Assembly: GCA_903865015.1 (NCBI GenBank)
Contig: CAIPID010000296.1
Coordinates: 1 to 33,321, forward strand
Direction: 5' to 3'
DNA: 33,321 nt
Origin: an uncultured beta proteobacterium
GTDB lineage: Bacteria > Pseudomonadota > Gammaproteobacteria > Burkholderiales > Burkholderiaceae_B
The notes beneath the pieces were generated by a model. The model saw only the letters and a program-made list of their open reading frames with translations, made no database searches and was not told the DNA's origin. Within the stretch, counting starts at the first letter, position 1. Every line of letters begins with the position of its first letter. The position numbers were made by a program, and so were the translations under genes. This document shows, piece by piece, positions 8,805 to 31,262 of this stretch.

Positions 8805-8899
8805 GGGTAAGAGTCTTATAAACACAATGTGATGAAAACTGAATCCAAGAGTTCCACAGCGCTTATTTTAAGACTCGTGATTATGAGCGGATTTGTAAG

Positions 8900-9550: not shown

Positions 9551-9565
9551 TTCAATTTCGCTGAG

Positions 9566-10983: not shown

Positions 10984-11373
10984 TAAAGCGTCAACGATAG
11001 CACATCCGCCTAGTTCGAACGCTGGATCCCTCTTTGTTAGACTATGATTCCTTCTTGTTCGACCGTCCGTAATGGATCTGTCATTGAGTGTCACCGAAAT
11101 GGCTAGGAGTACCACTTTTATGGGCGCAAGCTTTACCAATACCTACCAATGCCAGAAAAAAACCGATTGATTCGTCCACTCCTAATCCGTTGATTTATAT
11201 AGGGGTGGCAGGCGTGCCTTCTGGACTTCGGCCTGTGCAGGGTGGGGAGGGTGGGAGAGAGAATGCCCAAACGGAGAGTAATACCTGCCGGTTGCTGTCA
11301 GAAATGGCGAGATTTGAAGTCCGTAAGAATCCAAAGGAATCCGCGTAAACACGCGGTAGTAGGCAAAAAAAAG

Positions 11374-11396
11374 CCAACCCCGAAGGGTTGGTTTTT
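11374..11396. terminator. Rho-independent terminator-like hairpin, possibly bidirectional
   Basis: ccaaccc-cgaa-gggttgg followed by ttttt on the plus strand and preceded by aaaaaaaa (T-tract for the minus strand). Confidence 0.7.
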
Positions 11397-11767
11397 CCTT
11401 TATTGGTGGTGGGGCTACAACCCGCGCCAAACCGCGCCAGTTCTGGCCCTTATGCCCGCTGAGAACTGCTGCGGAAAGGTGCGAAACCCACCCAGTACTG
11501 CCGTGAATGGTAGCAAATCCTCGCGCCTCTGCCGTCAGCACGTGCCGCGGGACCGACGTCCAGTTCGATTCCCATTTACGGAATTGAACCTGCGTCCGCA
11601 TCTGCCGCGTCAGTGGCAGCGCTTGGTGCATCTTCGTGATCAAGACTCATCCACTTTGTTTACTTGCGTAGACACAATCAATGGCGCATAATGTCATCAC
11701 AATGATGATATAAATGGCGCCATGATGAACAGTCAATCCGATTTTTACGGTCTACCGGTCGTCTCTC

Positions 11768-12691
11768 GTGGATGAGGAGTCTTTGACCATGCACCCTCAG
11801 CGTGTCGAAAGTTTGAGTCATGCACAACGCGAGCGTTTGGCGTATATCGACTTCCGCCTGTACTTCATGGGGGAAGTCGGGCGACCTGACTTGGCAAACC
11901 GCTTCGGCGTGGCACCTGCGGCGGCGACTCGGGACTTGGCACTGTACCGGGAAGTGGCGCCACAGAACATTGAATTCGACGGCAGCAACAAGATCTACCG
12001 GATCGGCAAAGCGTTCGCGCCCTTGTTCGACCATGCCCCGCAGCGGGTGCTGTCAGCGCTTTCGCTTGGGTTTGGTGATGGTGTGAAAGGCGAGTCGCAG
12101 CCCATGCTCTCTTGTGAGTCGCCTGCTGCGTTGAGCAGTCCTCGGATGGACGTACTTGCACCGATTTGCCGCGCCATCCACGCCAAGCGCCCGGTGTCGA
12201 TTCGCTACCATTCGATGAGCAACGGCGAGTCCGAGCGGGTCATCGTCCCGTTTGCGCTGGTTGACACTGGCCTGCGTTGGCACGCACGGGCATTTGACCG
12301 AAAGTCCGGCGAATTCCGCGACTTTGTCATCACCCGTATCGAAGCGCCGACCCTGATCGATGACGAACCCAAGGCCAACGAGCGCCCGGACAACGACATT
12401 CAGTGGACGCGGATCGTGGAACTAGAACTGGTTCCGCATCCCCGCCTCGGTCGTCCTGAAATCATCCGGATGGACTACGGAATGCAGGACGGCTCCATGC
12501 GGATGCGAGTCCGGGCAGCGGTCGCCGGTTACATGCTGCTGCGCTGGAGCGTAGACGCTTCGCCGGATCACAGCCTCAAAGAAGAACAGTACCGGTTATG
12601 GCTCAGTGATCCGTTGGCCTTGTACGGCGTGGAAAACGCAAAGCTCGCACCGGGATATCAAGCTCCTGCGGCCAAAACAATACGCAAATAG
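11768..12691 (+). CDS. WYL-domain transcriptional regulator (BrxR/CapW-like) of the defence operon
   Basis: 307 aa; N-terminal wHTH (GRPDLANRFGVAPAAATRDLALYRE), WYL-type core (ISIRYHSMSNGES...VPFALVDTGLRWHARAFDRKSGEFRDFVITRI). Lies immediately upstream of hsdM. ATG at 11789 is an alternative start. Confidence 0.85.
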   Translation: MDEESLTMHPQRVESLSHAQRERLAYIDFRLYFMGEVGRPDLANRFGVAPAAATRDLALYREVAPQNIEFDGSNKIYRIGKAFAPLFDHAPQRVLSALSLGFGDGVKGESQPMLSCESPAALSSPRMDVLAPICRAIHAKRPVSIRYHSMSNGESERVIVPFALVDTGLRWHARAFDRKSGEFRDFVITRIEAPTLIDDEPKANERPDNDIQWTRIVELELVPHPRLGRPEIIRMDYGMQDGSMRMRVRAAVAGYMLLRWSVDASPDHSLKEEQYRLWLSDPLALYGVENAKLAPGYQAPAAKTIRK

Positions 12692-12702
12692 GACAAAACA
12701 CG

Positions 12703-14244
12703 ATGGCAACTAACGACACAAACAAGAACGGCGGCAACCTCGGCTTCGAGGCCGAGATGTTCAAGGCAGCGGACAAGCTGCGCGGCAATATGGAGCCGTC
12801 CGACTACAAGCACGTCGCGCTCGGACTTATCTTCCTGAAGTACATCTCGGACGCCTTCGAGGCGCGGCACAAAGCGCTGCTGGCAGAAGACTCCGAAGCG
12901 GCCGAGGACAAAGACGAATACCTCGCGGACAACGTCTTCTGGGTGCCGAAGGATGCGCGCTGGTCGCACTTGCAAGCCAACGCCAAGCTGCCCACCATCG
13001 GCACGCTGATCGATGACGCGATGCGCTCCATCGAGAAAGACAACGAGTCGCTTAAGGGCGTTCTACCCAAAGACTACGCCCGGCCTGCGCTCAACAAGGT
13101 GATGCTCGGTGAGCTAATCGACCTGATTTCGGGGATTGCACTCAACGAGGAAGGCGACCGATCAAAGGACATCCTCGGCCGAGTCTACGAATACTTCCTT
13201 GGCCAGTTTGCGGGAGCCGAAGGCAAGCGCGGCGGCGAGTTCTACACGCCGCGCTCCGTCGTGCGCGTCCTCGTCGAGATGCTGGAACCCTATCAAGGCC
13301 GCATCTATGACCCGTGCTGCGGCTCGGGCGGGATGTTTGTGCAGTCAGAGAAATTCGTGCAAGAGCACGGCGGCCGTATCGGCGACATAGCCGTCTACGG
13401 TCAGGAGTCAAACTACACGACGTGGCGCTTAGCCAAGATGAACCTTGCGGTACGCGGCATCGACTCCGACATCCGCTGGAATAACGAGGGCAGCTTCCAC
13501 AAGGATGATCTGCGCGACCTCAAGGCAGACTACATCTTAGCCAACCCGCCGTTCAACATTTCCGATTGGGGCGGAGAACGCCTGCGCGAGGACGTTCGTT
13601 GGAAATACGGCGTGCCGCCAACTGGAAACGCCAACTATGGGTGGTTGCAACATATCGTGCACCACCTAGCGCCGAACGGTGCAGCAGGTGTCGTTCTTGC
13701 GAACGGTTCATTGACATCGAACCAAACCACTGAAGGCCAGATACGTCAGGCAATGGTTGAGAATGATGTTGTTGCTTGCGTCCTGACATTACCAGTACAA
13801 CTGTTTTATTCGACACAAATATCGGCGAGCGTGTGGATTCTTGCGCGCAACAAGAAGTTTGCGAATGGCACTGACCGCTCCGGCCAAGTCTTATTCATCG
13901 ACGCACGATCTCTCGGCAGTCTAGTAGACAGGACCCGGCGCGAATTTTCTGAAGCCGAGATATTAAAAATAGCAAATGCATATAAGTGCTGGAAAGGTGT
14001 CGACCAGTCTGAAGGGTACAAGGATGTTCCAGGATTCTGTCGATCAGTAGATATCAAAACCATTGCAGAACATCGATGGGCCCTCGTTCCTGGTCGTTAT
14101 GTCGGGTTTGATAGATCGGAACTCTCCACCAAAGCAATTACGAAGCTACAGGAAGATTTTTCCGAACTGAAGGCTGCACTTATAAATTTGCCGAGTGAGG
14201 TTGCACAGTCAATTAAGATTTTTGAGGAGTTGTTCCATGGCTGA
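12703..14244 (+). CDS. hsdM: Type I R-M DNA methyltransferase subunit M (second system)
   Basis: 513 aa; EFYTPRSVVRVLVEML, YDPCCGSGGMFVQSEKF, ILANPPFN motifs. Confidence 0.95.
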   Translation: MATNDTNKNGGNLGFEAEMFKAADKLRGNMEPSDYKHVALGLIFLKYISDAFEARHKALLAEDSEAAEDKDEYLADNVFWVPKDARWSHLQANAKLPTIGTLIDDAMRSIEKDNESLKGVLPKDYARPALNKVMLGELIDLISGIALNEEGDRSKDILGRVYEYFLGQFAGAEGKRGGEFYTPRSVVRVLVEMLEPYQGRIYDPCCGSGGMFVQSEKFVQEHGGRIGDIAVYGQESNYTTWRLAKMNLAVRGIDSDIRWNNEGSFHKDDLRDLKADYILANPPFNISDWGGERLREDVRWKYGVPPTGNANYGWLQHIVHHLAPNGAAGVVLANGSLTSNQTTEGQIRQAMVENDVVACVLTLPVQLFYSTQISASVWILARNKKFANGTDRSGQVLFIDARSLGSLVDRTRREFSEAEILKIANAYKCWKGVDQSEGYKDVPGFCRSVDIKTIAEHRWALVPGRYVGFDRSELSTKAITKLQEDFSELKAALINLPSEVAQSIKIFEELFHG

Positions 14245-14926
14245 GGCTTTTCTGGATCACCCTGATGGGTGGAAAATTATTTCACTGGAACCGAAGCCTA
14301 AATCCGGTTTCATCGAGCGCGTGGAGAGTGGAGGAACCCCAAGTACATCTGTCGATGAATACTGGGATGGTGACGTTCCTTGGTTGACGCCAAAGGAGAT
14401 AACCAGAAACAACGGCGCGCTCTACGTATCCAGCACTGAACGAAATATTACAGAACTTGGCGTGCAGTCAAGTGCGGCAAAGCTAATGCCTGTAGGTACT
14501 GTAATGCTTTCTAAGCGGGCACCAGTGGGCGCTGTTGCAATCTCAACTGTTCCAATGTGCACAAACCAAGGTTTTCTCAATTTCATATGCGGGGAAAAGC
14601 TGTTGCCAACCTACCTCGCTTACTGGCTTGTTGCGAATAAGAGATATTTGGACGCAGTCGCAAATGGATCAACTTACCCGGAGCTCTATAAAGGGGATCT
14701 GTTCGAATTCCAAATGGCTGTCCCGTCAATTGGACAACAAAAAGAAATTCTTCGGACTATCTCATCTGCAAAGCAGCTTGCACTTTGTTTGGATGCAACA
14801 TCACATTCGGCCATTGAGGTTGCTGAGGTTCTTAAGCTTCAGACTCTGAAAGAAAGAATCGATCACTTCTACACCACCCTATTGCCAATAATCCTTTCCG
14901 GTCGTTTGGTCGGAGGTCAAGCATGA
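14237..14926 (+). CDS. hsdS: Single-TRD (half) specificity subunit S
   Basis: 230 aa from ATG 14237 (MAEAFLDHPDGWKIISLEPKPKSGFIERVESGGTPSTS...). One TRD and one conserved helical region only. Overlaps the hsdM stop (ATGGCTGA). Confidence 0.85.
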   Translation: MAEAFLDHPDGWKIISLEPKPKSGFIERVESGGTPSTSVDEYWDGDVPWLTPKEITRNNGALYVSSTERNITELGVQSSAAKLMPVGTVMLSKRAPVGAVAISTVPMCTNQGFLNFICGEKLLPTYLAYWLVANKRYLDAVANGSTYPELYKGDLFEFQMAVPSIGQQKEILRTISSAKQLALCLDATSHSAIEVAEVLKLQTLKERIDHFYTTLLPIILSGRLVGGQA

Positions 14927-16098
14927 CCCTCTGCTTGACAAATTCGTGCCGAAAACTCCTCGGACACACCGGGCAGCATGATATGTACCCATCAGTTCCA
15001 TGGGCATTCATGACCGTGAAGGATAAGGACAAGCTAGCAAAGGCTGGTTTTGCCACGCCTAGAGGTGGCGCGAAAGGTGCTTATCAAAACCATGTTTTGC
15101 GAAGCAATCGGGTCATCGTTCCGTTTGAACGCCTGAGTCAAGCACCCGTAGCCAGTTATCAAGATGGGTATGTGATTCGCATCTACCCTGACCAGTATTT
15201 TGACGCGCCCGGCCAGATCAAGCCCACATTTAGTCAGGCCGGTGCGCCTCAGGTCGGCACCAATGCATTCGTCCTATATCGCACACACGACCAACTGGCG
15301 AGTTTTCCTCCTCCTGCAGACTGGAATGTCCGTTCTCTTTCGCTGAATGGAATTCAGGTCAACGAGCGCGTGTCTGGAGCAATAGATTCCGGAGAATATG
15401 TTCTACGAATTGCTGCTCATGGTAACAATGCCGCGAGATCTGATGGGCCTCCACAGGGAATATTTGCGCCGGAATACGCGAACGAAAACACCAACTACCT
15501 TGCCAAATGTGTACTGGCCTGGCTTACGTCGCATACCGTTGATAGCCCTTATGTTGCGACTCAGGCTCAGCATCTAGAAACAATTCTGCAGGATGCCGGC
15601 ATTTTTGAGCCGCACGAGTGGGAGGCAATGGGGTTGCTACGAGGCGGACTCACCTGCTGCCCTTTGTGCATGAAACACATTCGGTACTCAGAGTTACACG
15701 ATCAAGTTTCATTTGCGGATGAATCTTCGCTGCTCAATGCGTCCGAACAGGTTGTGAATGCGACGCGATCCACCGTGGTCAACCTGTTTCATATGGCTCC
15801 GCTCACGTATTCCGACGTGGAGCACACGCCGCAGAACGTTGCTTGGGGTCACGCCATTTGCAATACAAAGCTTGGGCAACGCAAATGTTATCCATTGTCG
15901 GAGTTAATCGCCGATGGGTCGAAGGTTGGAATAGTGGATCAAGAGGGGCTGATATCAACATTCGGCTGGATTTCCGAAAGTCTAGAAATGATCAGATCTC
16001 CGGCAGGGGCGGTTTGGATTCGAATCGTAGAAGATCATCTTTCAGCTGAAGATCAGTCAAGCCTGATTGAGTTTTTGGAAAATCACAGGGACGAATAG
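14923..16098 (+). CDS. BstXI-family-like HNH/zinc-ribbon restriction endonuclease
   Basis: 391 aa, ATGA overlap with hsdS. Features: [73 protein letters not shown] (HNH-like), [23 protein letters not shown]. Family recognised from memory. Confidence 0.7.
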
Positions 16099-16099
16099 C

Positions 16100-19000
16100 A
16101 TGGCATTTCTGTCAGAGGCTTTAGTCGAGCAGGCGCTGCTTGAACAGCTTGGTACGCTGGGATATAGCGTCGAGCAGGAGGAAAACATCGGCCCTGATGG
16201 TCACCGGCCTGAGCGCGAAAGCCATGACGAGGTAATACTGAAAAAGCGGCTTACGGAAGCCGTTGCGCGCATTAATCCGGAGATGCCACTGGATGCGCGT
16301 CAGGATGCGATCCGCAAGGTAATGCAGTCCGATCTACCATCGTTGCTTGAGGAAAACCGCCGCATTCACAAGTTGATCACAGAGGGCGTCGACGTCGAAT
16401 ACTACGCCGACGACGGCACACTGACCGCAGGCAAGGTTTCCCTCATCAACTTCGAGCGGCCAGAGCAGAACGATTGGTTGGTGGTGAGCCAGTTCGTGGT
16501 GATCGCCGGGCAATACAATCGCCGCCCAGACGTGGTGGTGTTCGTTAATGGCCTGCCGCTGGGTGTGATCGAGCTGAAGGCTCCCGGCAGCGGCAACGCA
16601 ACATTGGTCGGGGCTTTCAATCAGCTGCAGACCTACAAAAAGCAGATCCCGGCGCTGTTCAATACCAACGCCCTGTTGGTGACTTCTGATGGGATCACCG
16701 CACGGGTTGGCTCGCTCTCTGCCGACCTAGAGCGGTTCATGCCGTGGCGCACGACCGACGGCAAAGACGTTGCACCGAAAGGTGCGCCGGAGCTCTCGAC
16801 ATTGATCGAGGGCGTTTTCGAGCAGCGCCGCTTGCTCGATATGTTGTGCCACTTTACCGTCTTCAGTGAGACGGGCTCCGGCTTGGCGAAGATCATCGCG
16901 GGCTATCACCAGTTTCACGCGGTTAAGCATGCGGTTAACAGTACCGTGACGGCGTCCGCCCCTGGTGGCAATCAGCGGGTTGGCGTGATCTGGCACACCC
17001 AGGGCTCCGGCAAAAGTCTGCTGATGGCGTTCTACGCCGGGCAGCTGGTCAAACATCCTGCGATGGCCAACCCAACGCTCGTGGTGCTGACCGACCGCAA
17101 TGACCTCGACGACCAACTGTTCACCACCTTCTCGATGTGCCGCGACCTGATTCGGCAGACGCCGGTACAGGCTGACAGCCGCGAAGACTTACAGAAGCTT
17201 TTGGCGCGTGCATCGGGTGGCGTGATTTTTACGACCTTGCAAAAGTTTGGCGAGACAAGTCAGGCGCTGACAGACCGCCGCAATGTGGTCGTCATCGCTG
17301 ATGAAGCGCACCGCAGCCAATATGGCTTTCGTGCCAAGGTGGATGCCAAGACCGGGGAGATTTCCTACGGGTTCGCCAAGTACCTGCGCGACGCGCTGCC
17401 CAACGCATCGTTCATTGGGTTTACCGGCACGCCCATTGAGGCCGACGATGTGAATACCCCGGCGGTATTCGGCAACTACATCGACGTTTACGACATCAGC
17501 CGCGCCGTTGAGGACGGTGCGACCGTGCCAATCTACTACGAGTCGCGACTCGCACGCATTGAGCTTGATGAGGACGAGAAGCCCAAGATCGATGCCGAGG
17601 TGAACGAACTTACGGAGGACGATCCGGAGGTTGAACAGGAGCGCTTCAAGCGCAAATGGTCGACAGTAGAAGCCTTGGTGGGCAGCGATAAGCGCCTCGC
17701 GCTGGTTGCGCGGGATATGGTCACCCACTTCGAGGATCGCGTTGCTGCGCTGGACGGAAAAGCGATGGTGGTGTGCATGAGCCGTCGCATCTGCGTGAAG
17801 CTGTATGACGAGATCGTGAAGCTCCGTCCGGACTGGCACAGTGCCGATGACAACGCGGGGGCAGTCAAGATTGTGATGACGGGCGCTGCCAGCGACCCCG
17901 AAGAATGGCAACAGCACATCGGCAACAAAGCCCGCCGAGATTTGCTGGCCAAGCGCGCACGCGATGCCAAAGACCCGCTCAAGTTGGTGATCGTGCGAGA
18001 TATGTGGCTTACCGGATTCGATGCGCCCTGCATGCACACGATGTACGTGGACAAGCCGATGCAGGGGCACGGCTTGATGCAGGCAATTGCGCGGGTGAAT
18101 CGTGTGTTCCGCGACAAGCCTGCTGGGTTGATCGTCGATTACATAGGTATCGCTCAGAACCTGAAATCGGCGCTTCAGCAGTACTCGAAGAACGACCAGG
18201 AGAACACCGGCGTCGACGAGTCGCAGGCCATCGCAGTTCTGATGGAAAAGTACGAAGTCGTTCGCGACATGTATCACGGCTTCGACTACGCATCAGCGAT
18301 GGGCGGAACACCTCAAGAACGCTTGGCAATGATGGCCGGTGCAATTGAGTGGATTCTCGACATGCAGCAAAAGTTGGCGGCGAAGGAGAAAACCAAGGAA
18401 GGCAAGAAGGACGCACATCGCCGCTATCAGGATGCCGTGCTGGCGCTGTCCAAGGCCTTCTCCCTTGCATCGGCATCCGACGAGGCTCGCGAAATACGAG
18501 AGGAAGTGGGCTTCTTCCAGGCGATTCGCGCGGCGCTGGTAAAGAGCAGTACCGGGTCGGGCGTGACTCAGCAAGAGCGTGAACTGGCAATCCAGCAGAT
18601 CGTGAGTCGCGCCGTAGTTTCCACCGATATTGTCGACATCCTCGCTGCCGCCGGGATCAAGAGCCCGGACATCTCGATCTTGTCAGACGAGTTCTTGGCC
18701 GAAGTTCAGCAGATGGAGCGCAAAAACCTCGCGCTGGAGGCGTTGAGAAAGCTCATCAACGACGGCATCCGTTCCCGCAGCAAATCCAACGTGGTGCAGA
18801 CCAAGGCATTCTCGGAACGGTTGGAAGATGCGGTCGCACGATATCACGCCAATGCGATCACCACTGCTGAGGTCTTGCAGGAGTTGATCGACCTCGCCAA
18901 GGATATTCGAGCAGCCCGCCAGCGGGGTGAAGAGCAAGGTTTGTCCGAAGATGAAATCGCCTTCTACGACGCGCTGGCCGAGAACGAGAGCGCCATTCAA

Positions 19001-19255
19001 ATGCTGGGTGACGACAAACTGAAACTTATCGCACACGAGTTGTTGGTCAGCCTGCGTGAGAACGTGTCAGTGGACTGGGCACATCGTGATTCTGCCCGCG
19101 CACGGATGCGAGTTTTGGTGAAGCGCATTCTGCGCAAGTATGGCTACCCGCCTGATCTGCAGGACGCGGCCGTGCAAACGGTACTGCAGCAGGCCGAGGC
19201 ATTGTCGTCGACGTGGAGCATGCCGAGACCTGGCAGCGGAGGTGGCAATGGCTAG
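16100..19255 (+). CDS. hsdR: Type I restriction endonuclease subunit R (second system)
   Basis: Start [23 protein letters not shown] one nt after the upstream stop. Contains [66 protein letters not shown]. Confidence 0.95.
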
Positions 19256-19913
19256 GACTAAACGCTCATCTTCCCTTAAAGCTGAGAACGGCAAAGCCAT
19301 TTGGCTGCTGGTAAGCGCCGACATCGTTGTAATAGTTTTGGTGCTTACCGGTTTTGTGTTTACTCAGGCGTCCCTAACAAAACTTGCGCAGTCCGCGCTC
19401 GTTCGAGGGATATTGCTGGCTGCTGCTGGCCCGCTCATCGCCGTCTTCTTGAACGACTTGTTGCCATCGAACGCCAAGGCTTCAATCGTGTTCTGGCGTT
19501 TCAAAGACGCACTGCCGGGTCATCGCGCATTTAGCGAGCACGTCGAAGCTGACCCTCGAATCGATATGGTGGCGCTGAAGAAGAAAATCGGAGAATTTCC
19601 GCAAAGCCCAAGAGATCAAAATACCCGCTGGTATCAGTTATTCCAAAAGTATCAGTCGAACGTCATCGTCAGTGACGCACACAAGCGATTTCTGCTGTTT
19701 CGGGACTCGTCCAGTCTAACGCTTCTGATCCTGGTGATTGCCGGTATAGCCGCAGTGCTGTCGGGTGTTCCACTTGGCCTGCAAGCAATACTTGCAGGCG
19801 GACTGGCAATACAGTTTCTTTGGCTCGCCTTATCCGCCCGAAATACGGGTATACGGCTTGTGCAAAACGTCCTAGCGCTCGAGTCGAGCGACGATGAAGG
19901 GAAAAAGAAATGA
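19248..19913 (+). CDS. Predicted four-TM membrane protein with a central soluble domain
   Basis: [38 protein letters not shown]...[19 protein letters not shown], a soluble stretch, then [39 protein letters not shown]. Start overlaps the hsdR stop (ATGGCTAG). Confidence 0.75.
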
Positions 19914-20866
19914 CCACTCGATCCATCGTGACGCGATTCCGTGCATATCAGCTTGGCAATGCCGGTGCTTCCTTTTCGTTCTTTGCCGACGGCACGTTTA
20001 CGTTGATCGAAGCGCGGCTCACCGATCTCAGTCGCCCCAACCTGAACCAAGAATTGGCACAGTGTGGAAAGACCTCCATTGACGTTCTGCATATTACCGG
20101 CTGGGACCAGGACCATTGCGCCATAGCTGATCTTGAGGAATTACTTTCACTCTACAAACCAGCGAAAGTTGAGTATCCAGGATATCCGCCGCACAGTGAT
20201 ACTGCAAAAGAATGCTTAAAGATAATTCTGAGATATCGGACGACGAATTCGAACAAAGGGCGGTCCGTAAAATGCGTCGCTGTCAATCCCGACTACATCA
20301 AGGGGCTAAAGAGTGCAGATGATCTGGCATACCGAGATATTCTGTACCACCCGCGCATTTTGGTGGACGAGGACTCCAACAATAATTCGACAGTCAAGTT
20401 GTATCGACAAGGCTGCTTTAACGTAGCCAGCCTGGGCGATGTCGAGGATGCCAACATTGGCGCTTACCTTCGTCGTTGCAAGATTTTCAAGCGCGAAGTG
20501 GATGTCCTACTTCTTGCTCATCACGGAGCTGATTGCCCGACCAATTCAAAAACATTCTTTGAAACCGTGCAGCCTAGGATAGCCATTTGCGGGAGCCAGT
20601 TTGACAACCAGTTCGAACATCCCAAGCCAGAAGTTCGCCAGAGACTCTTTGAACTGGACATTCCGCTCATGACGACCAAAACGGGCGACGTGTTAATCCA
20701 GTCGCGTTCGCCCCATTCGCATAAGTTTCGTGCCACGAATCTGATCGCCAACTCGACGAAAGTTTCAAGAGAGCTTGATTTTGTGACGCGAAAGAGTCAC
20801 TGGCTTTCAATGAATGCGGACACCCTCCGGAACCTTTATCGGCCTGGTTTCAAAGGACTCCGCTGA
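19910..20866 (+). CDS. MBL-fold (ComEC C-terminal-like) protein with altered metal-binding motif
   Basis: ITGWDQDHC, SLGDVED, LLLAHHGAD, ICGSQFDNQFEHP. ATGA overlap with the membrane-protein gene. Confidence 0.75.
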   Translation: MTTRSIVTRFRAYQLGNAGASFSFFADGTFTLIEARLTDLSRPNLNQELAQCGKTSIDVLHITGWDQDHCAIADLEELLSLYKPAKVEYPGYPPHSDTAKECLKIILRYRTTNSNKGRSVKCVAVNPDYIKGLKSADDLAYRDILYHPRILVDEDSNNNSTVKLYRQGCFNVASLGDVEDANIGAYLRRCKIFKREVDVLLLAHHGADCPTNSKTFFETVQPRIAICGSQFDNQFEHPKPEVRQRLFELDIPLMTTKTGDVLIQSRSPHSHKFRATNLIANSTKVSRELDFVTRKSHWLSMNADTLRNLYRPGFKGLR

Positions 20867-20953
20867 TGGTGCTAAATAGAAATGGGGGGCGAGTGAAACA
20901 AAACTTAATCGACTGCGCGCATGACACCCGTGCGTTGCCTAAAGGCTGACACG

Positions 20954-21958
20954 ATGGCCACCATACACTTTCTCAATGTGCGTGAGGGCGACTGCATCGT
21001 GGTTCAACACAACAGTGGCAGGACCACGATGATCGACATCTCCTGTGGCAACTTAACCACTGTGACCGAATCCACCAATCGACTAATGAAATTAGCAGGC
21101 CTCGCGGGCTCCAACACGGGCGGCAACTTTAACATGAAGGCATATCCAACAAGGCCACAGTCCTACTTGTCCAATATCGGGATCAACTCAATCTGGCGCT
21201 TTATCCTGACCCATCCTGATATGGACCACCTGGACGGGTTCAATGCCTTGATGGACGAGTTGGCCATCAGCAATTTCTGGCACTCAGGAGCCGATAAACC
21301 CAAGCCAGACTTCAACGGCTACAACGGTTATAAGGAAGAGGACTGGGATCGTTATGCCAAGGTCAAACAAGGCAACGAACAAGGCACCACAACGCTAAAA
21401 ATCCTTTCGGGCGACGTCTTTAAATATGCCAACCAAGACGACAATGGCGAGGGCGGCGATGGCCTCCAAGTGATCGCGCCAACCAAAGACCTGGTGGATA
21501 AAGCCAACGAGAGCGAAGACTTCAACGACTGCTCATTCGTGATTGTCTATCGCACGGCTGGCTTTAAGATCGTCTTCACAGGCGACTCCCATGACTCGAC
21601 ATGGGAGCACATTTTAGACAATCATGTTGAGGATGTCGCGAACTGCGACCTGCTGATTGCTCCGCACCACGGGCGCGATTCCGGCCGCTCATGGGATTTC
21701 TTGGATGTGTTAAAGCCGCGCTTGACTCTGTTCGGTGTAGCCAACTCGGACCACCTAGCTTATGACGCTTGGAATCGGCGCGGGCTTGATAAGATCACCA
21801 ACAACCAAGCGGGCAATGTGGTCCTGGACATAGACGGTGATCGTATGCATGTCTATGTCGAGAACGATTCGTATGCTGAATCCAGGAATCCCGGCAGCGT
21901 TACTCGAAATTCATTAGGCTATCGAACTTTAGGCTATTTGGAAGCCAGTCACGCTTGA
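20954..21958 (+). CDS. MBL-fold hydrolase (ComEC C-terminal-like), motifs intact
   Basis: MATIHFLNVREGDCIVVQHNSGRTTMIDISCG, LTHPDMDHLDG, FTGDSHD, LLIAPHHGRDS, GVANSDHLAYD. In-frame ATG at 20921 is an alternative start. Confidence 0.85.
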   Translation: MATIHFLNVREGDCIVVQHNSGRTTMIDISCGNLTTVTESTNRLMKLAGLAGSNTGGNFNMKAYPTRPQSYLSNIGINSIWRFILTHPDMDHLDGFNALMDELAISNFWHSGADKPKPDFNGYNGYKEEDWDRYAKVKQGNEQGTTTLKILSGDVFKYANQDDNGEGGDGLQVIAPTKDLVDKANESEDFNDCSFVIVYRTAGFKIVFTGDSHDSTWEHILDNHVEDVANCDLLIAPHHGRDSGRSWDFLDVLKPRLTLFGVANSDHLAYDAWNRRGLDKITNNQAGNVVLDIDGDRMHVYVENDSYAESRNPGSVTRNSLGYRTLGYLEASHA

Positions 21959-22252: not shown

Positions 22253-22765
22253 TTAGTCTGTTCTCTGACTGAATGCGTCGGCCTGTTCCTTATACCAACG
22301 CTGAAACTCCATCACCATCAACGTCGTCTGAGCGGCATCCTCAGCTAATTTTTCGCAGCTGCCGGTGGATTGTTCTGAATCAGATACAGCGTAGGCGGCG
22401 CTTGCATTAGCCCCGGTGGTACCGCTGGAAATGCTGGGCATAGGGCTGTTATCACCTGAGGGTTTGATGCGCACCCGCTGAGGAATGCGATCAAGCAAGT
22501 GCTGATCAGAGGCAAGGACTGCAGTTTTTTGTTGAATGTCATTTGAAATTTCCTGATTGATGGTGGTTTGTGCGTTGGTTTCTTGTGCAACTTGTTGTTC
22601 ACGCTTGGCAACGGCAGCCGCCTCTTTGTTTCTTTCTGTAGCCCAATTTGCATTGATACGGTTTTCTCCAAACTGGCAACCGCTAATAAAAAGTGCCGAT
22701 ACGACTGCGATGATCCCTAACAAGCGCCAGGGTAAGTTGGTGAGTAAATGAAGTAGAGCAAGCAT
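22253..22765 (-). CDS. Rz-like inner-membrane spanin subunit
   Basis: 170 aa with one N-terminal hydrophobic segment, then a charged coiled-coil-like region (ATERNKEAAAVAKREQQVAQETNAQ...); last gene of the lysis cassette; hosts a nested Rz1 frame. Confidence 0.75.
   Translation of the reverse strand: MLALLHLLTNLPWRLLGIIAVVSALFISGCQFGENRINANWATERNKEAAAVAKREQQVAQETNAQTTINQEISNDIQQKTAVLASDQHLLDRIPQRVRIKPSGDNSPMPSISSGTTGANASAAYAVSDSEQSTGSCEKLAEDAAQTTLMVMEFQRWYKEQADAFSQRTD
22345..22542 (-). CDS. Rz1-like outer-membrane lipoprotein spanin nested in Rz
   Basis: From ATG 22542: MTFNKKLQSLPLISTCLIAFLSGCASNPQVITALCPAFPAVPPGLMQAPPTLYLIQNNPPAAAKN. Lipobox LSGC plus proline-rich tail, in an alternative frame within Rz. 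Confidence 0.75.
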   Translation of the reverse strand: MTFNKKLQSLPLISTCLIAFLSGCASNPQVITALCPAFPAVPPGLMQAPPTLYLIQNNPPAAAKN

Positions 22766-23713: not shown

Positions 23714-25075
23714 CTAAATCGCCCTGATAGGAATCACGCGATTGGTCTTGGGCTTTACATTTGGCACATCATTTGCCAACCCCTGCACAACGCCAAATAT
23801 GTCTTTTCGGTCTTGAGGAAAATCACCCTCGATATAAATCGGGACATGCCCCGTTAAAAGGGTGATTCCAAACGCAAAAAATGCGATGTTGTCTGAGTAA
23901 GATGCCGCGCAAGCTGCATTCCATAGTGGCCCGTCAAGAAACATGCAGGAGCCCTTGCACAGCTGCAACACAGGGCAACTTGAGCAATCTTTTCGTTCGC
24001 GCCAGTGCGTTGAGCTTTTCATCTGCACCTTGCTTAGATCTGCCAATGTGCCAATCGCATGAGACTCTCCATTAGGCGCACGTGAAACCGCGCTGACGTT
24101 TTGACAGGTGACAACTCGACCTTTTAGGTCTACTGCAATGTGATCACTTCGGTCCATATTGCACTTTTGCCCCAAACTGCTGGCGGGCCTACCTTGCCTG
24201 ATAGAGTTCACAAAATCCATCGTTTTAGAGCTGGCCAAATCAAATTGACTCGCTGCGCCACTACGCAAATCATCAAAGGCTTGTCGTCTAAATAAAATGT
24301 GCTCTTGCGGATTTCTAAAGAGCGCACCCAATCCGCCATCGTCATACGGATCAATAAATGCGCCTTCGCCAATCGGCACATCCGCACCAAACCGTGTCTG
24401 CAACCAATGCTGTACTGCGGCGCGACTTGGGTTGTGACGACTCATCATGGCGTTGATGCTGATGCGGCCCTTTGGATGCAGTCTGGCATACAAATCCATC
24501 ACAGCCGCGTGCTGATTTGGATCATCCAGTGGATCAAGTCCGCGTGCGTGATAGCCAGGACCATCATGCGAAATCGCAACACAAAAATCCAGCATTTCTA
24601 ACCACGCATTAATCTCTGCATTCAACAAAGATCCATTGGTGATCAAGTGAAATTGCGCCTTCGGATAAATTGCTCGAAGCTGGTTGGCAAGTGGCTGCAA
24701 GGTTTTGATATAGACCAGAGGCTCGCCGCCCCAAAACTCAATACGCTCGGGCGGGACTTGAACTGCTGTTGTCAATTGCTGGATAAAGCGGTCAACATCT
24801 TGAGGGTTGGTTTGCTCAGCATGCGGCACAAAACGTTGGCTGCAGTAATTGCATTCATAGTTGCAAGATAAGCCAAGACTAATTTTGAGGACTTTGATGT
24901 CGGACTTTTGACCCGGCAAAGACTGGCACACGACGGTGGCATCTTGAAATACTTTTGGCTTGACCTCGACCACAGGGCTTCCGTCTTCCCAAGTCAAGCT
25001 ACTGGTTTGGTTGTCATAACCCAGGTGACGTACATCCCCATTGGGCGCAATTGCACGAATTAAAAAATGAGCCAT
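23714..25075 (-). CDS. Radical SAM/SPASM peptide-modifying enzyme
   Basis: 453 aa; CNYECNYC (CxxxCxxC), FWGGEPL, ITNGS, and SPASM cysteines (CNMDRSDHIAVDLKGRVVTCQN...CSSCPVLQLCKGSCMF...C). Confidence 0.95.
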   Translation of the reverse strand: MAHFLIRAIAPNGDVRHLGYDNQTSSLTWEDGSPVVEVKPKVFQDATVVCQSLPGQKSDIKVLKISLGLSCNYECNYCSQRFVPHAEQTNPQDVDRFIQQLTTAVQVPPERIEFWGGEPLVYIKTLQPLANQLRAIYPKAQFHLITNGSLLNAEINAWLEMLDFCVAISHDGPGYHARGLDPLDDPNQHAAVMDLYARLHPKGRISINAMMSRHNPSRAAVQHWLQTRFGADVPIGEGAFIDPYDDGGLGALFRNPQEHILFRRQAFDDLRSGAASQFDLASSKTMDFVNSIRQGRPASSLGQKCNMDRSDHIAVDLKGRVVTCQNVSAVSRAPNGESHAIGTLADLSKVQMKSSTHWRERKDCSSCPVLQLCKGSCMFLDGPLWNAACAASYSDNIAFFAFGITLLTGHVPIYIEGDFPQDRKDIFGVVQGLANDVPNVKPKTNRVIPIRAI

Positions 25076-25935
25076 TACGGGGTCACCTGACGCAGATTGA
25101 AATAGGTGGTTTGTAATTTTCTGATGACAGCTTTGGTCGCGGCAATATCGCTAACCGCTGCGTCATCACCCATAAATTGCGTGGCCGATGACTGACTCAT
25201 CATTGTGGTGAGAGCTGCCAGCCAATTTGGCACTTGAGCAGCAGGCAATGAGGCAGATAAAGTGATGACGAGCTGCGTCACTAAATCCAATTGCTTCTCC
25301 AGGGCGGCGATGGAATCTTCGGGTTTGATCTGTGCTAACAGCGGACGCTTTGCCTTATTGCGGATGATCAGTGTTTGCAATCCACGAGTGTGACTGGCCA
25401 TCCATTGCCTTGGGCGCATGTAGTTCAGATCATCCTTCACTATCGAGCTCAGTGTGATTCCGGCGATGTTGACCGCAAGAGGCTGGATCTGTTTTCGGGT
25501 GATGAAATGAATGTCACCTCCATCAAAACCAACAATAAATAGATGTTGCGTTAAATCGCGTACCCCTTTTCTCTCGGCAACGCTGGAGGCTGCGCCGCGT
25601 GAGTTAAACCGCTCAGAGTCCCAAACCAACTCAATAGAAGATTCCAGTCCGGCATACCCCACGGCCATGTCAGGGGTTTCCAACAGCAGTCTTGGGTCTA
25701 GAGTGATGGTTTGGTTTTTGTACGTCACCTGCAAGCAAACCGCATCAACGACGGCTAGGGTGAGTGCTTCACTGGTGTCTACCGGTAGGCTGACGTTTGT
25801 AACAGCAACTGTCGTTTGTGCTTCTTGGCTGGCGTTGGGGTCGGCTGAAGTTGCCGACGTTGCTGAAACCGGTGATGGTGATGCTGGCGAAGCAGGGGTT
25901 GCTGCTGGCAGAATTTCTGCTGCGATGTAAATCAT
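25075..25935 (-). CDS. Unknown protein of the tail-fibre modification cassette
   Basis: 286 aa; Ala/Pro/Ser-rich N-terminus (PAATPASPASPSPVSATSATSA). Start overlaps the 2OG-oxygenase stop (ATGA); stop overlaps the radical SAM start (TAATG). Confidence 0.75.
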   Translation of the reverse strand: MIYIAAEILPAATPASPASPSPVSATSATSADPNASQEAQTTVAVTNVSLPVDTSEALTLAVVDAVCLQVTYKNQTITLDPRLLLETPDMAVGYAGLESSIELVWDSERFNSRGAASSVAERKGVRDLTQHLFIVGFDGGDIHFITRKQIQPLAVNIAGITLSSIVKDDLNYMRPRQWMASHTRGLQTLIIRNKAKRPLLAQIKPEDSIAALEKQLDLVTQLVITLSASLPAAQVPNWLAALTTMMSQSSATQFMGDDAAVSDIAATKAVIRKLQTTYFNLRQVTP

Positions 25936-26573
25936 AGATTTCCTCTAAAGTAGTCTTTGGGCCAAGGCAAGCGCACTTGGGCCACGATGTGAACAAAGGG
26001 GTTTTCTCCCCGGTAAGGGTGAACGTTGTGGGGTAAATGCGCGGGATAGATGGCGAGCAACCCAGGCCTTGGACACACATCTACAGAGTGGCGCATCTCC
26101 ATTGGTAGTCTTAACTCTGACAAGTGCCTTGATGGATCTTCAAGCGTAAAAACTGGCGCATGAAACCCATCTGCGTTCTGGTTAATGGGCTGACCAATTT
26201 GAGATGGGTCACCGCTGGGCCAATACGCGATGCCCAGATCGCTTTCACGCGCTTCGGTGTGCGTGTTGATGTGATCAAACTTTTTCAAGACCACGCCGCG
26301 CAAACCAACTTCCATGTCTTCATTGGATGCAAAACCACAATAGTGGGCACAGGCCTCTTTGATGACCCTGAGCAGCCATTCAACCGAAGACGATTGGTTT
26401 GCATGCAACTCATGTAGCCTTAGTTCGTGCATGGAACCTTCTTGAGCTTGGCAACCCGAAATAACCAGCGCTTCTAATGTACGGTTGTGCTGATCAATAT
26501 CAGATCCCGCGAACTGCGTGAACATTACCGGGGTTGGCCAGAGCATTTCTTTGACAACGTGCGCTGTATTCAT
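25932..26573 (-). CDS. 2OG-Fe(II) oxygenase-like protein
   Basis: Start MNTAHVVKEMLWPTPVMFTQF, 1 nt after the tail-fibre stop. Resembles phage 2OG-Fe(II) oxygenases (INTHTEARESDLGIAYWPSG...PRPGLLAIYPAHLPHNVHPYRGENPFVHIVAQVR), with a candidate HxE...H...R set. Confidence 0.75.
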   Translation of the reverse strand: MNTAHVVKEMLWPTPVMFTQFAGSDIDQHNRTLEALVISGCQAQEGSMHELRLHELHANQSSSVEWLLRVIKEACAHYCGFASNEDMEVGLRGVVLKKFDHINTHTEARESDLGIAYWPSGDPSQIGQPINQNADGFHAPVFTLEDPSRHLSELRLPMEMRHSVDVCPRPGLLAIYPAHLPHNVHPYRGENPFVHIVAQVRLPWPKDYFRGNL

Positions 26574-26574
26574 C

Positions 26575-27492
26575 TCAGCACCCACAGTTGCAATTGCAGT
26601 TGCAGTTGTTTGAGAGTTGCGGTCTGATGACGCCACCTGAAATATTCCAACTCACAATATGCCAAGCTCCCGCGCCATCTCCTCCGGTGTTATCCCAGGC
26701 CACCCAATTCGCTATATTCGCGCTTGCTGCTGAACCAGCGCTGTTGGCGTAGTTCACCGAAAAGTTCGATGGATTCCAAACATAAAAATTAGCGCCGTCG
26801 CTGCTTCCCCAAAGCCAGGCCGGCTGCCCGCCTTGTCCTGACCAGTTGTAGGTTCCAGGACCCGCAGTGGAAATGAGTTTTGAGGCGGTAGCGGCATTAC
26901 CACTCACGCTGATGGGCCATGTGCCAGAGGATCCTGATCCCCCCGGCTGCGGCGGCGTGTACCCAAGCGCGCCCGTGACATCGCTAGAGCCCAAAGCCAC
27001 AGCACCAGATCGTCCAAAGACTGATGTGACCGGTGCAGCAGGAAAACTAATTGCAGCCGTCCCCACGGCCGTGACTTGCCCCTTAGCGTTGGTCGTGATC
27101 ACCGGTACCGAGGTGGCGCTACCGGCTGTTCCAGTATTACCGTTGACAGTCGGAAGGGTGGCTGTAATGGAGACGTTGCCACTGCCATCAAAGCTAGTAC
27201 TGCCAGAGACATCGCCGGTAATTGCAATCGTCACTGCGGATTTCAGCTTTGAAGCTTGTGCTGCCACGATGTTGTAGACGCTCGCTAATGCACCCCAGGT
27301 GGTTCCAGAGAACTTTTCCCAAAAGCCGTTGGCACTATTCCACCTCACGGCATTGGTTGGGACGTTGGCGGGGTTGCTTGTTGCAGGATCTAGCGCTTTG
27401 GACAAATCGCCAGCCAGTGCGTTGACCTCAGACGCGACGTTGACGTAGGTATCGGTCGTTTGTGGTTTGGAAAAATCAGATGTATTGCTCAT
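26575..27492 (-). CDS. Phage tail fibre/appendage protein with Asn-Cys repeat C-terminus
   Basis: 305 aa; tail-fibre repeats (GDVSGSTSFDGSGNVSITATL, VTGALGYTPPQPG, GGQPAWLWGSSDGANFYVWNPSNFSVNYANSAG). Lies directly downstream of J and ends ...SGGVIRPQLSNNCNCNCNCGC. Confidence 0.85.
   Translation of the reverse strand: MSNTSDFSKPQTTDTYVNVASEVNALAGDLSKALDPATSNPANVPTNAVRWNSANGFWEKFSGTTWGALASVYNIVAAQASKLKSAVTIAITGDVSGSTSFDGSGNVSITATLPTVNGNTGTAGSATSVPVITTNAKGQVTAVGTAAISFPAAPVTSVFGRSGAVALGSSDVTGALGYTPPQPGGSGSSGTWPISVSGNAATASKLISTAGPGTYNWSGQGGQPAWLWGSSDGANFYVWNPSNFSVNYANSAGSAASANIANWVAWDNTGGDGAGAWHIVSWNISGGVIRPQLSNNCNCNCNCGC
26578..26610 (-). other. C-terminal NNCNCNCNCGC motif of the tail fibre (candidate modification/core region)
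   Basis: Minus strand codons: AAC AAC TGC AAC TGC AAT TGC AAC TGT GGG TGC, then TGA. Confidence 0.9.
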
Positions 27493-27536: not shown

Positions 27537-30500
27537 TTAATAACCCTTAGCAGACCAAGACACCGTTCCAGATGTCCGTTGTCCCGACTGGTTGAATAAG
27601 AAAACTTGAAAATTCGTTGGATCGGCATTGCCCAAGAATTGATAAATCGCTGTCAAAGGCGTTGAGCCAGCTGGTGTGACCGTGATGCTGATGACGTCCA
27701 CAAATGGGACGTTGAAGTTGACGTTGGTTCCATTGATGTCGCTCGCGTTTGCCTGCACAGAGCCCGCATCGTTTTTAAGCTTGACATCCAACTTGATCTC
27801 AAGATTGGTCATGGCCAGTAACGACTTGTTGTCAGGCGATGTGACTGTCAAACGAACTTTGAGCCACCGAAAATTCGTGAGGTACACCTGACTGACATTT
27901 GGATAGTCCGTCCATGGACCTGTAGTGCTGGTATTGCTGCAACTGATCGTCACGCTGGTCGCAGGGTTTCCAGCCAAGGACTGCATGGTGGGTGTTACGG
28001 TGACATTGGTCGCAGCAAGCAACGCGCCGTAATCAATCACCTCCTCGTAATAACCGCTAGCGACCGTCGGCTGTGCATATAGTGGGTAGCCGGCATTGAT
28101 TTGGTCGTTGGGGGAGGCCCAGCTGTTGTTTGAGAAATGCTGAGCCCATGAAGATGCCGCATCAACAGGCAATACAACTTGTGATTCTTCATGCACGGCA
28201 TTAACAAGGGTGCCCGTGAAACTGCTAAAAATATCTGAATGCAAGACATAGTCCGGCGGCGCATTTACCGTTGCCGTAATGCTGCCCGGCGCACCTAAAT
28301 TTCCTGCAGCATCAATTCCCGTGATCCAGTAGGTGTAGGTTCCAGCCACGGTCTCGAATACCGTTGTGAATAACCCGGACTTGGTGCCAATCACGGCTGC
28401 ATTTGCCAGGGTGGAGCCTTTGGCAATTTGGTAGGTGGAGACTGGCAGCGATTTGGTTGCATCCGTCCAGTACAGCAAGACGTTGTTATCGATGATCTGC
28501 GTCGTGACGCTAGGCGCTGCAGGTGCCGACACCGTGAGTTGGGTCATGGCAGAGACACCCACATTACCAGCAATGTCGACTGCACTGACCCAAAAAGTAG
28601 AGTTACCCGAGAAATTGACTTTGCTCTGGTATTGCGTGGTGTAGGCTAAAGCCATCTGTACCGAGGTTTGTACGGTCGGCCCCTCGGCAATCACATAGTG
28701 ATCGATGGGAAACATGGAGGGCGGCGTGTTCCATGCGAGCACATAGTTTGGTCCTGAGAGGCTGGCGGTCAGACTTGGCGCTAGTGGAATCGATACGATC
28801 AGCGCCGCAACCGTTGCATCAGCTGATTCATTAAGCAGCTTGTCTCGAGCTTTGATCATCCATTGGTATCCGGCAGCGGCCAATGGCGCAACCAACGCGC
28901 TGGTTCCTGCAAAAAATCCTAAGGACATTCCGCTCGACCAGCTTGTACCTTCCCTGATTTCATAGTCATAGAGCATGGGGTCGGCAATATCTGTCCATGC
29001 CAACTGCACACCATTGTTTTGAACGGTCGCGCTCAAGCTGCTCACATCCGATGGCAACACCATGGGCGGCGGCGTGACGGTCACGCTCAAATTCGCGGCT
29101 TGAGATGAAAACCCCAAAGCGGAAACTGCCACCACAGAAAATTGATAGATCGCGCCCTGATCAACGCTCTCAATGTCTAAGCTTGGCTGATTTTGAGAAA
29201 TCGTGGTGACGGTGCCATTGACTTTTTGTGTCGTCACTAGAAAGCTGTTGGCCGATCCACTCCACGACAAGTTCAGACGCAGACCCGCCACGCCAATATC
29301 AATGGCATAGCGAGAGACGGTGGCCGTTAAATTGGTTGGTACGGCAGGTGTCGCACTCAGATTACTGGTCTGCGCTTGCGAGAGGGTTAAGCCATCTTCA
29401 ATAAAACCATACTTACTGGGATTGTGTGCGACCGCCGAGATTTCCAGTTGATTGCTCTCCACTTCAGAAATCGTGACCACGCGCCAAAATTCTGGCGTGA
29501 TGTCAGATTCGACGAGCAGATAGACGGCATTAGCCAATGGCACTTGCGGCAACGGGCTGGAGAGCTTAAGTGAAGCGCCATTCACCGTCTCTACTGCGGT
29601 GCTAACCATCGTGCCGTCCGGCATGACCAGCTGTAGCGTGAGCGGCAACCCCGTCGTTGCAATGAATGGGTTGTCGAGCGTGACTTGCGTGAGGTCTGTG
29701 GAGATCGCAACCATACGGCCGCCCATGCGCTTACCCGCTCGGTTGGGGTCCGAGCTTTGAATCACCGCTCCTGGATATAGATAGATGCTGTCCATTCCCG
29801 CTCTGAACGTCACAGTCTCTGTCTCTAACTGCTCCGAATAAAGCAACCACTGCCCAACACGGTGCGCTTGACCACGACTCGTGCATCCAAACGCGGTGAT
29901 CTGACTCTTGATGACGCCGTACTTAGCAACCGAAGCGTCGTCTTGAACGTACTCCACTTTTTGTTGGTACCAGTCGTTGGGGTCGTTCCAACTCACCAGC
30001 ACTACCGTGTGGCGCGTCTTAAGACTGCTGCCCTGGTATTTGAATGCGCCGTTAAGGACATTAGCTGGGGTGAACATTTGCACCGGATCACTAGGGGCGT
30101 CTTGCATCACCGCAATGGAGCCTGCCGCCCAGTACACGATCGAGCGGAAGATGCTCGCCATGTTTTGCACGACCTTCCAAGCATCCTCATCTGACTGCAG
30201 CAAGAGGTTGCAAGTAAAACGGGGTTCTTGACCGCCAAAACCATCTGGCACCAGCACGTCGCAATACTGACCAATGGCATAGAGCTGCCACTGATCGATG
30301 CTGGCACTGCTCAATCTGTCCCCCAGGCCATAGCGGCTGTTTGTCAGTAGATCGTAAAAGCACCAGGCGGGATTGTCAGACCAGGCCAGTTTGAATGTGC
30401 CATCCCATGATCCGCTGTAAACGTGTCCAATAGGGTCATAGTTGCTCGGTACATTGATCACCAGACCTTTGACGTCATAGGCACGACTGGGAATAGCCGA

Positions 30501-31262
30501 GAACTGCTGTGCATCGATGGCCATCCCGACTAACGCGGTGTGCCGATACTCGAGCTTGGTTGACACAATGGCGGTGAACTCGTCAAACCACAACTGGTTT
30601 TGCAAATAAGTTGCACCTGAATCGGGTGTCACACGTGTCACCCGAACATCAAAGGGGCCGCTGCCCGTCAAAGGGATTAAGTACGAGCGTGAATAGCGAC
30701 TGGTTGTTTTGCCGGAAATGGTGTCTTGCACAGCCGTCACGAATCCGCCACCATTGTTTTGAATATCAATGGTGTATTCCACTGAGGCTCCTGAAATATT
30801 GCCAGAGCTCGGGTCTTGATAGGTCAGGCTAGGCACACTGACCGTAATCCGCAAAGCATCAATATTGGGTGTGGTCACGTTACGCACAATGGCGGTGGCC
30901 TGCCACACCTGAATACCCACCGCCGTGGTGGCTTCAACCGATCCAGCGTCTCCTGAGAGTTGCGACACGGCGGCTTGGTTGCTGGCGATGTCACCGGTTG
31001 TGTAGCCAAAAGTTGCGCTATTGAAGTTGTAACTGCCATCCAGATTTTGCAGAGGCGTCTTATCCAGATAGATGGACTGCGCACCATTTACCAGACCCAC
31101 AATGGGACCTTCACAAAGGGCATCCATGACAAAGGCTTGCTGACTTGAGCGCAGGGTGTCAGGGGACTCTGACGGCGCGGATCCACTACCGCCTCCCCCT
31201 TTACCTGATCCACCACCTCCTCCTTGAATCAGGGCTGGGCGGATCACACCAATCCCTTCCAA
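27537..31262 (-). CDS. Phage tail tip/host specificity protein J (lambda gpJ-like)
   Basis: 1241 aa; N-terminal Gly-rich linker then SSQQAFVMDALCEGPIVGLVNGAQSIYLDKTPLQN; repeated fibronectin-III-like modules; position after I in tail order. Confidence 0.95.
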   Translation of the reverse strand: MEGIGVIRPALIQGGGGGSGKGGGGSGSAPSESPDTLRSSQQAFVMDALCEGPIVGLVNGAQSIYLDKTPLQNLDGSYNFNSATFGYTTGDIASNQAAVSQLSGDAGSVEATTAVGIQVWQATAIVRNVTTPNIDALRITVSVPSLTYQDPSSGNISGASVEYTIDIQNNGGGFVTAVQDTISGKTTSRYSRSYLIPLTGSGPFDVRVTRVTPDSGATYLQNQLWFDEFTAIVSTKLEYRHTALVGMAIDAQQFSAIPSRAYDVKGLVINVPSNYDPIGHVYSGSWDGTFKLAWSDNPAWCFYDLLTNSRYGLGDRLSSASIDQWQLYAIGQYCDVLVPDGFGGQEPRFTCNLLLQSDEDAWKVVQNMASIFRSIVYWAAGSIAVMQDAPSDPVQMFTPANVLNGAFKYQGSSLKTRHTVVLVSWNDPNDWYQQKVEYVQDDASVAKYGVIKSQITAFGCTSRGQAHRVGQWLLYSEQLETETVTFRAGMDSIYLYPGAVIQSSDPNRAGKRMGGRMVAISTDLTQVTLDNPFIATTGLPLTLQLVMPDGTMVSTAVETVNGASLKLSSPLPQVPLANAVYLLVESDITPEFWRVVTISEVESNQLEISAVAHNPSKYGFIEDGLTLSQAQTSNLSATPAVPTNLTATVSRYAIDIGVAGLRLNLSWSGSANSFLVTTQKVNGTVTTISQNQPSLDIESVDQGAIYQFSVVAVSALGFSSQAANLSVTVTPPPMVLPSDVSSLSATVQNNGVQLAWTDIADPMLYDYEIREGTSWSSGMSLGFFAGTSALVAPLAAAGYQWMIKARDKLLNESADATVAALIVSIPLAPSLTASLSGPNYVLAWNTPPSMFPIDHYVIAEGPTVQTSVQMALAYTTQYQSKVNFSGNSTFWVSAVDIAGNVGVSAMTQLTVSAPAAPSVTTQIIDNNVLLYWTDATKSLPVSTYQIAKGSTLANAAVIGTKSGLFTTVFETVAGTYTYWITGIDAAGNLGAPGSITATVNAPPDYVLHSDIFSSFTGTLVNAVHEESQVVLPVDAASSWAQHFSNNSWASPNDQINAGYPLYAQPTVASGYYEEVIDYGALLAATNVTVTPTMQSLAGNPATSVTISCSNTSTTGPWTDYPNVSQVYLTNFRWLKVRLTVTSPDNKSLLAMTNLEIKLDVKLKNDAGSVQANASDINGTNVNFNVPFVDVISITVTPAGSTPLTAIYQFLGNADPTNFQVFLFNQSGQRTSGTVSWSAKGY

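Follow-up and report, generated by a model that had tools for sequence, protein, structure and literature searches.

Gene order at the locus

The window analysed here is an entire contig (CAIPID010000296.1, C296; 33,321 bases) of an uncultured beta proteobacterium, from a fragmented parent assembly of 3.58 Mb. A lambda-type tail and lysis module occupies its minus strand from 33317 to 22253 in the order L, K, I, J, fibre, 2-oxoglutarate (2OG)-Fe(II) oxygenase-like protein, 286-aa protein, radical S-adenosylmethionine (rSAM) enzyme, small protein, endolysin and spanin. The analysis concerns the tail fibre, which has an Asn-Cys repeat at its C-terminus, and the rSAM enzyme with its SPASM domain. 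Hundreds of phages, the window's included, encode an rSAM enzyme beside a tail-fibre gene ending in such a repeat.

The J-like central tail/host-specificity protein (27537..31262, minus strand), which provides the context, matched phrog_1727 (2e-272) and the Pfam family FNIII-A_GpJ. Next after it lies the proposed substrate, a 305-aa protein (26575..27492, minus strand) that was assigned as a phage tail fibre from its position adjoining J and from PHROG tail-fibre and structural-protein matches of 5e-10 to 5e-6. There follow on the same strand a 213-aa 2OG-Fe(II) oxygenase-like protein, the putative accessory enzyme (25932..26573), a 286-aa partner protein referred to as type U (25075..25935) and the 453-aa rSAM/SPASM enzyme, the proposed tail maturase (23714..25075; phrog_1802, 1.2e-56). 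The 2OG-like gene was started at the ATG at 26573, one base past the fibre stop; the mechanical open reading frame (ORF) reaches back to a GTG at 26636. From the fibre to the rSAM gene the junctions are therefore a 1-nt gap, an ATGA overlap between the 2OG-like and 286-aa genes and a TAATG overlap between the 286-aa and rSAM genes. These coordinates bear out the sequence-only reading, which had described four consecutive minus-strand genes in this order joined by overlaps or a 1-nt gap. The window's assembly and the genomes holding close relatives of its rSAM enzyme share their order, the database neighbours being mainly Burkholderiales, for example Limnohabitans.

The Asn-Cys tail

The C-terminus of the window fibre is SNNCNCNCNCGC, and the longer end stretch reads ...GGVIRPQLSNNCNCNCNCGC. 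The tail proper, NNCNCNCNCGC (26578..26610, minus strand; DNA AACAACTGCAACTGCAATTGCAACTGTGGGTGCTGA), is the proposed modification site and has an equivalent in 205 ORFs at 191 rSAM loci. Across 120 distinct tails, each usually with 4-11 Cys, the residue preceding Cys was Asn in 503 of 753 cases, Asp in 76, Cys in 63 and Ala in 61. The placement is C-terminal: in 115 of the 117 distinct tails that are not followed by a Hint domain (see below), the last Cys lay within 10 residues of the end, and in 82 it was the final residue. Three or more Asn/Asp-Cys pairs in the last 20 residues were present in 191/205 tail ORFs compared to 21/7243 other ORFs of at least 100 aa at the same loci, a contrast that is descriptive because the tail ORFs were selected by a related motif; chance was tested by the reverse scan described below. 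In 95 of 105 distinct DNAs encoding the repeat, synonymous codons for Asn/Asp or Cys were mixed, so it is the protein that is conserved and not a DNA repeat.

By BLAST, the fibre bodies preceding the tail separated into 10 groups with no links between them, an uncertain count of truly unrelated bodies because one large group (174) was chained by single linkage. The L046 fibre has collagen repeats ahead of the tail (Pfam collagen, 1.4e-22). The same tail is borne by very short ORFs (64-115 aa) in which no fibre domain is visible, and at L215, L236 and L244 two or three short tailed ORFs stand in tandem.

Co-occurrence of the tail and the rSAM gene

For the forward test, 151 loci with relatives of the rSAM enzyme were taken from whole genomes, GTDB contigs and IMG/VR (80 kept of 365 in IMG/VR). 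Most of them have an upstream same-strand ORF ending in repeated Asn/Asp-Cys, and where at least 4.5 kb of upstream sequence was available a tail ORF lay within 4 kb in 101/117 loci. The 16 misses comprised six YcaO-linked loci (L061-L065 and L074; linkage called with Pfam for L061, L063 and L065, and read by sequence likeness for L062, L064 and L074), two by transport genes (L049, L059), two with the tail more than 4 kb off (L097, L117), two whose tail ORF escaped the motif rule (L048, L137), and L031, L069, L080 and L129. In L048, from Polynucleobacter, the tail is degenerate and the 2OG and rSAM genes are each broken into several ORFs; the set therefore seems to decay together. At L059 (5768-17290), the family rSAM gene has as neighbours an ABC transporter gene and an ORF of 2218 aa with RTX repeats, whose product might be a secreted substrate unrelated to phages.

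Since selection by the enzyme was to be avoided, the reverse scan was seeded on tail DNA, and IMG/VR was scanned for sequence encoding NCNCNC[ND]C. Among the matches listed (at least 120 loci), 106 were in frame, and in 91 of those the repeat lay no more than 15 residues from the C-terminus. Of the listed in-frame loci for which 2.5 kb or more of downstream sequence was available, 66/73 had an rSAM gene of this family within 4 kb on the same strand, compared to 0/14 for the listed out-of-frame occurrences of the same DNA pattern, which served as the control. Five of the seven exceptions among the matches listed (L229, L247, L251, L266 and L277) were not C-terminal tails, and for L245 the contig ends 2.7 kb past the tail. 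The tail of the last, L271, is a proper one; no rSAM gene was found within 4 kb of it, and the locus may resemble L097 and L117, whose rSAM gene is 5-6 kb off. Some contigs are common to the forward and reverse sets, and many loci are near-copies.

The genes are thus linked in both directions. The sequence-only reading had set conserved co-occurrence of the rSAM gene with Cys-rich fibre C-termini as its own test in advance, and this co-occurrence was found. An origin of the tail by chance or as a DNA repeat was rejected on the mixed synonymous codons and the out-of-frame control, and the reverse scan makes it unlikely that the rSAM gene is a stray metabolic gene.

More than one rSAM homologue per locus was seen in L045, L147, L171 and L223; in L171 and L223, three to four lie 3' of a single short tailed ORF. 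Three further loci (L013, L034, L072) are Burkholderiales-like phage contigs in assemblies titled Akkermansia or Klebsiella, where mis-binning is likely.

The rSAM/SPASM enzyme

The cluster motif CX3CX2C (C71, C75, C78) was 97-100% conserved among 49 non-redundant relatives, and the seven SPASM cysteines (C305, C324, C364, C367, C373, C377, C389) were 100% conserved. In Pfam, Fer4_12 scored above its cut-off and Radical_SAM (PF04055) just under (29.1 vs 29.5); the NCBIfam SPASM model TIGR04085 was passed at 34.1 vs a cut-off of 27. The AlphaFold model is confident (pLDDT 93), and the closest folds were ChlB, CteB, anSME, TigE, SkfB and SuiB, mostly peptide maturases; the epimerase EpeE was also among the matches. 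Sequence profiles pointed the same way. The motif cysteines, profiles and folds place the protein in the radical SAM superfamily and among the SPASM peptide/protein maturases, a known enzyme class, and the earlier assignment to the SPASM peptide-maturase type is upheld by TIGR04085, the seven cysteines and the fold and profile matches.

The six YcaO-linked enzymes form one clade (SH-aLRT, a Shimodaira-Hasegawa-like approximate likelihood-ratio test, 98; quick tree with an arbitrary root). In this sub-clade, from Variovorax/Ramlibacter, the rSAM gene adjoins YcaO and nitroreductase genes. A short ORF lies between the YcaO and rSAM genes in L061, L062, L063, L065 and L074 and was not seen in L064; read by eye, these ORFs have an invariant Asp-Cys followed two or three residues on by I-[SA]-P. 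Asp-Cys is common to these ORFs and the tails, though the YcaO may also act on the Cys of the short ORF. These clusters share the rSAM family with the window but differ in having a putative short peptide-like substrate and a YcaO, with no Asn-Cys-tailed fibre seen nearby. All six are possible undescribed clusters for ribosomally synthesised and post-translationally modified peptides (RiPPs).

Partner proteins and the 2OG-like enzyme

Among the 191 loci with both tail and rSAM gene, the partner was of type A in 152, of type U in 20, of both types in none and of neither in 19. Type A is marked by a conserved VYLE..G.LP..R motif in its C-terminal region. Type U comprises nine non-redundant members at tail/rSAM loci; the window's 286-aa protein belongs to no known family, matching nothing in Pfam, PHROG or NCBIfam, and neither fold comparison of its AlphaFold model (pLDDT 69) nor a sequence search of the PDB yielded a usable hit. 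Treating types A and U as a single family was rejected, as hhalign found no profile similarity. The partner is exchanged, because the nearest whole-genome relative of the window's rSAM enzyme (L283; 64% identical, tail NCNCNCDCCC) carries type A and not type U. Fibre bodies, likewise, are exchanged around the constant tail-rSAM pair.

The 2OG-like protein was assigned as oxygenase-like from weak scores (PF13759, 19.2 vs a cut-off of 27; phrog_81, 1.9e-4) together with a conserved H-x-[H/E/D]...H: H105 in 44/45, position 107 as H in 21, E in 17 and D in 5, and H182 in 45/45. A 2OG protein of either of two families was present in 134/191 tail-rSAM loci (12/35 non-redundant). With 57/191 loci lacking any 2OG match, a fixed rSAM-2OG pair was rejected as the core, which is the rSAM enzyme and the tail, usually plus one of two unrelated partners, the 2OG enzyme being accessory. 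The sequence-only reading had an rSAM-2OG pair acting on the tail. Its rSAM half is tied to the tail by two-way co-occurrence, but the supposed 2OG half is missing from many loci, and the partner slot is filled more constantly. The second 2OG family is represented by L017:6753-7328, which has HxD...H, scores above the cut-off for Pfam 2OG-FeII_Oxy_3 and also matches PHROG 274; given this match, the PHROG 274 name (DNA endonuclease V) looks like a misannotation.

Hint variants and phage JWF

In L066, L067, L068, L070, L221, L232, L240 and phage JWF, the tail continues into a CF.AGT-type Hint sequence (called by eye for L221, L232 and L240). The JWF fibre, PJWF_00028, contains a Hint domain by PF05203 (47.5 bits vs a cut-off of 32.1) and is the only one of the scanned Hint-like variants to pass a curated cut-off, three from Rhodospirillaceae falling below theirs. 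Hint cleavage, if active, would re-expose the tail as the C-terminus. JWF and some others thereby resemble phage fibres with C-terminal self-processing domains, whereas the window fibre has no Hint domain.

Against annotated phages, the rSAM search found only JWF (two records) and phage 2-1, whose gene order is as in JWF; the fibre-tail search gave no match, possibly through the low-complexity filter. The JWF depositors labelled the rSAM homologue anSME. As described in PMC3899368, JWF is a cultured, ultraviolet-inducible temperate siphovirus of Achromobacter.

Proposed maturation of the fibre tip

Because the two genes co-occur so faithfully, the rSAM enzyme very probably modifies the fibre tip, and gene linkage strongly suggests the tail as its substrate. 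The whole is best explained as a maturation cassette that the phage encodes for one of its virion proteins, a reading to which we assign a probability of about 0.6. The fibre would be translated with its C-terminal Asn/Asp-Cys repeat, and the neighbouring rSAM/SPASM enzyme would bind this tail and modify it residue after residue. Radical hydrogen abstraction from Asn/Asp could be followed by capture by a nearby Cys thiol, giving short thioether links of about -2 Da each. Where encoded, the 2OG-like enzyme probably hydroxylates the same tail. The probable task of the partner, which is type U in the window and type A in most relatives, is to chaperone the fibre or tail or to bring it to the enzyme. 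The matured tip, at the free end of the fibre, would serve adsorption. Of these parts, the role in adsorption is a guess that we somewhat favour, hydroxylation a guess evenly poised between right and wrong, and thioether formation, the best of the chemical guesses, a tentative one placed a shade lower.

Thioethers are preferred because Cys is constant, Asn/Asp adjoins most Cys and PapB links Cys-Asp with zero spacing. PapB (NF047865; PapA/freyrasin) is, like the window enzyme, a radical SAM/SPASM protein and was the best NCBIfam match by score. According to PMC9413430, it joins Cys to Asp/Glu several times per substrate, forming Cys-Asp thioethers with 0-6 intervening residues. PapA, a short leader-bearing precursor, differs from the tailed proteins here, which are virion proteins of 60-690 aa.

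Several observations weigh against the proposal. The window enzyme falls outside PapB, as the NCBIfam thioether-maturase models scored far under their cut-offs (NF047865, 57.3 vs 340 bits). PapB failed to link a transposed Asp-before-Cys pair, DSANC (PMC9413430); this is not decisive, because an acceptor also follows nearly every Cys in the alternating repeat. Pairs other than Asn-Cys, namely Ala-Cys and Cys-Cys, are present in the motif. Ala-Cys makes up most of the repeat in some Rhodospirillaceae tails, a composition for which a thioether model specific to Asn does not account. The rSAM relatives of L011, L012, L049 and L059 have no tail or phage setting in the DNA read, and the co-occurrence counts are not independent events because the loci include near-copies.

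The strongest rival, owing to the Asn/Cys alternation and the PoyD/PoyI-like pairing, is that the rSAM enzyme is an epimerase that would convert alternate residues of the repeat to the D form while the 2OG enzyme hydroxylates Asn, giving a rigid alternating D/L helix at the tip. The alternation, the many Asn and the rSAM plus Fe/2OG oxygenase recall the polytheonamide pathway, in which, according to PMC9505594, PoyD makes 18 D-residues of an Asn-rich core and PoyI hydroxylates Val and N-methyl-Asn. The leader-type precursor, methyltransferases and protease of that pathway are absent here. Tolerance of Ala-Cys suits epimerisation better than Cys-Asn linkage, and EpeE is among the fold matches, but the fold is nearer ChlB, CteB, anSME and TigE, and Cys, the most constant tail residue, is unneeded for epimerisation alone. 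The full seven-Cys SPASM is found family-wide, a layout that PoyD-type epimerases are not known to have. Epimerisation is unlikely on this balance, and the two remaining alternatives are less likely still.

One of these, in which the tail ties three fibre chains together through the rSAM enzyme or disulphides, like a collagen cystine knot, and so stabilises the trimer instead of forming a binding tip, would suit the C-terminal placement across fibre types and the collagen repeats of L046; the same tail on very short ORFs with no visible fibre domain, and the need for neither Asn before Cys nor a 2OG enzyme, make it quite improbable. Least probable is that the tail stays unmodified, as a motif that binds metal or forms disulphides, while the enzyme acts on some other phage protein or on a molecule of the host, the genes being linked only through suiting the same phages: linkage is not biochemistry and Cys-rich repeats can bind metal unaided, but this enzyme class works on peptides and proteins, and the reverse scan links it to the tail, the common feature of dissimilar fibre bodies.

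Returning to the maturation cassette, anSME is likewise a SPASM rSAM enzyme acting on a protein and is among the top fold matches. It turns one Cys/Ser of a sulfatase into formylglycine, whereas the window locus has no sulfatase and the tail has many Cys. As for the earlier proposal of a RiPP-type system on a structural phage protein, a RiPP-type enzyme does stand beside a structural protein, but strictly speaking the system falls outside the RiPPs: the putative substrate is a 305-aa structural protein, and the operon has no short precursor, leader cleavage, protease or exporter.

Phage host range is largely set by fibre tips, which are assumed to be built from the twenty coded residues. No description of rSAM-modified phage fibres or enzymatically modified tips was found in the full-text literature searched, which left subscription papers mostly outside its coverage. 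If tips are chemically matured, adsorption would hinge on phage enzymes that require SAM, Fe-S clusters and in some cases oxygen, and a fibre produced on its own would miss its working end; the family would also offer a large natural set of rSAM enzymes for a portable C-terminal tag. With JWF a cultured temperate phage, the idea is directly testable. A broader reading, somewhat less likely than not, is of a widespread and hitherto undescribed post-translational chemistry of viruses, in which radical reactions turn the ribosomally made Asn-Cys repeat into a non-proteinogenic cap at the receptor-contacting fibre tip. Linked rings or a D/L helix might make up this cap, which would at times be hydroxylated and at times be uncovered by a self-cleaving Hint domain; it might act as a metal-binding mimic of a siderophore-like ligand that outer-membrane receptors take up.

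Other features of the window

Positions 568-19255 hold two type I restriction-modification systems on opposite strands, the second of which encloses a gene for a BstXI-like nuclease, and a WYL-domain protein is also encoded in this region. Two ORFs (19910-20863 and 20921-21955) matched PADLOC PDC-M48B models, the second also LmuA. In the lysis part of the module, the Rz-like spanin gene (22253-22765) has an ORF embedded in another frame (22345-22671) with a lipobox-like LSGC, a candidate Rz1.

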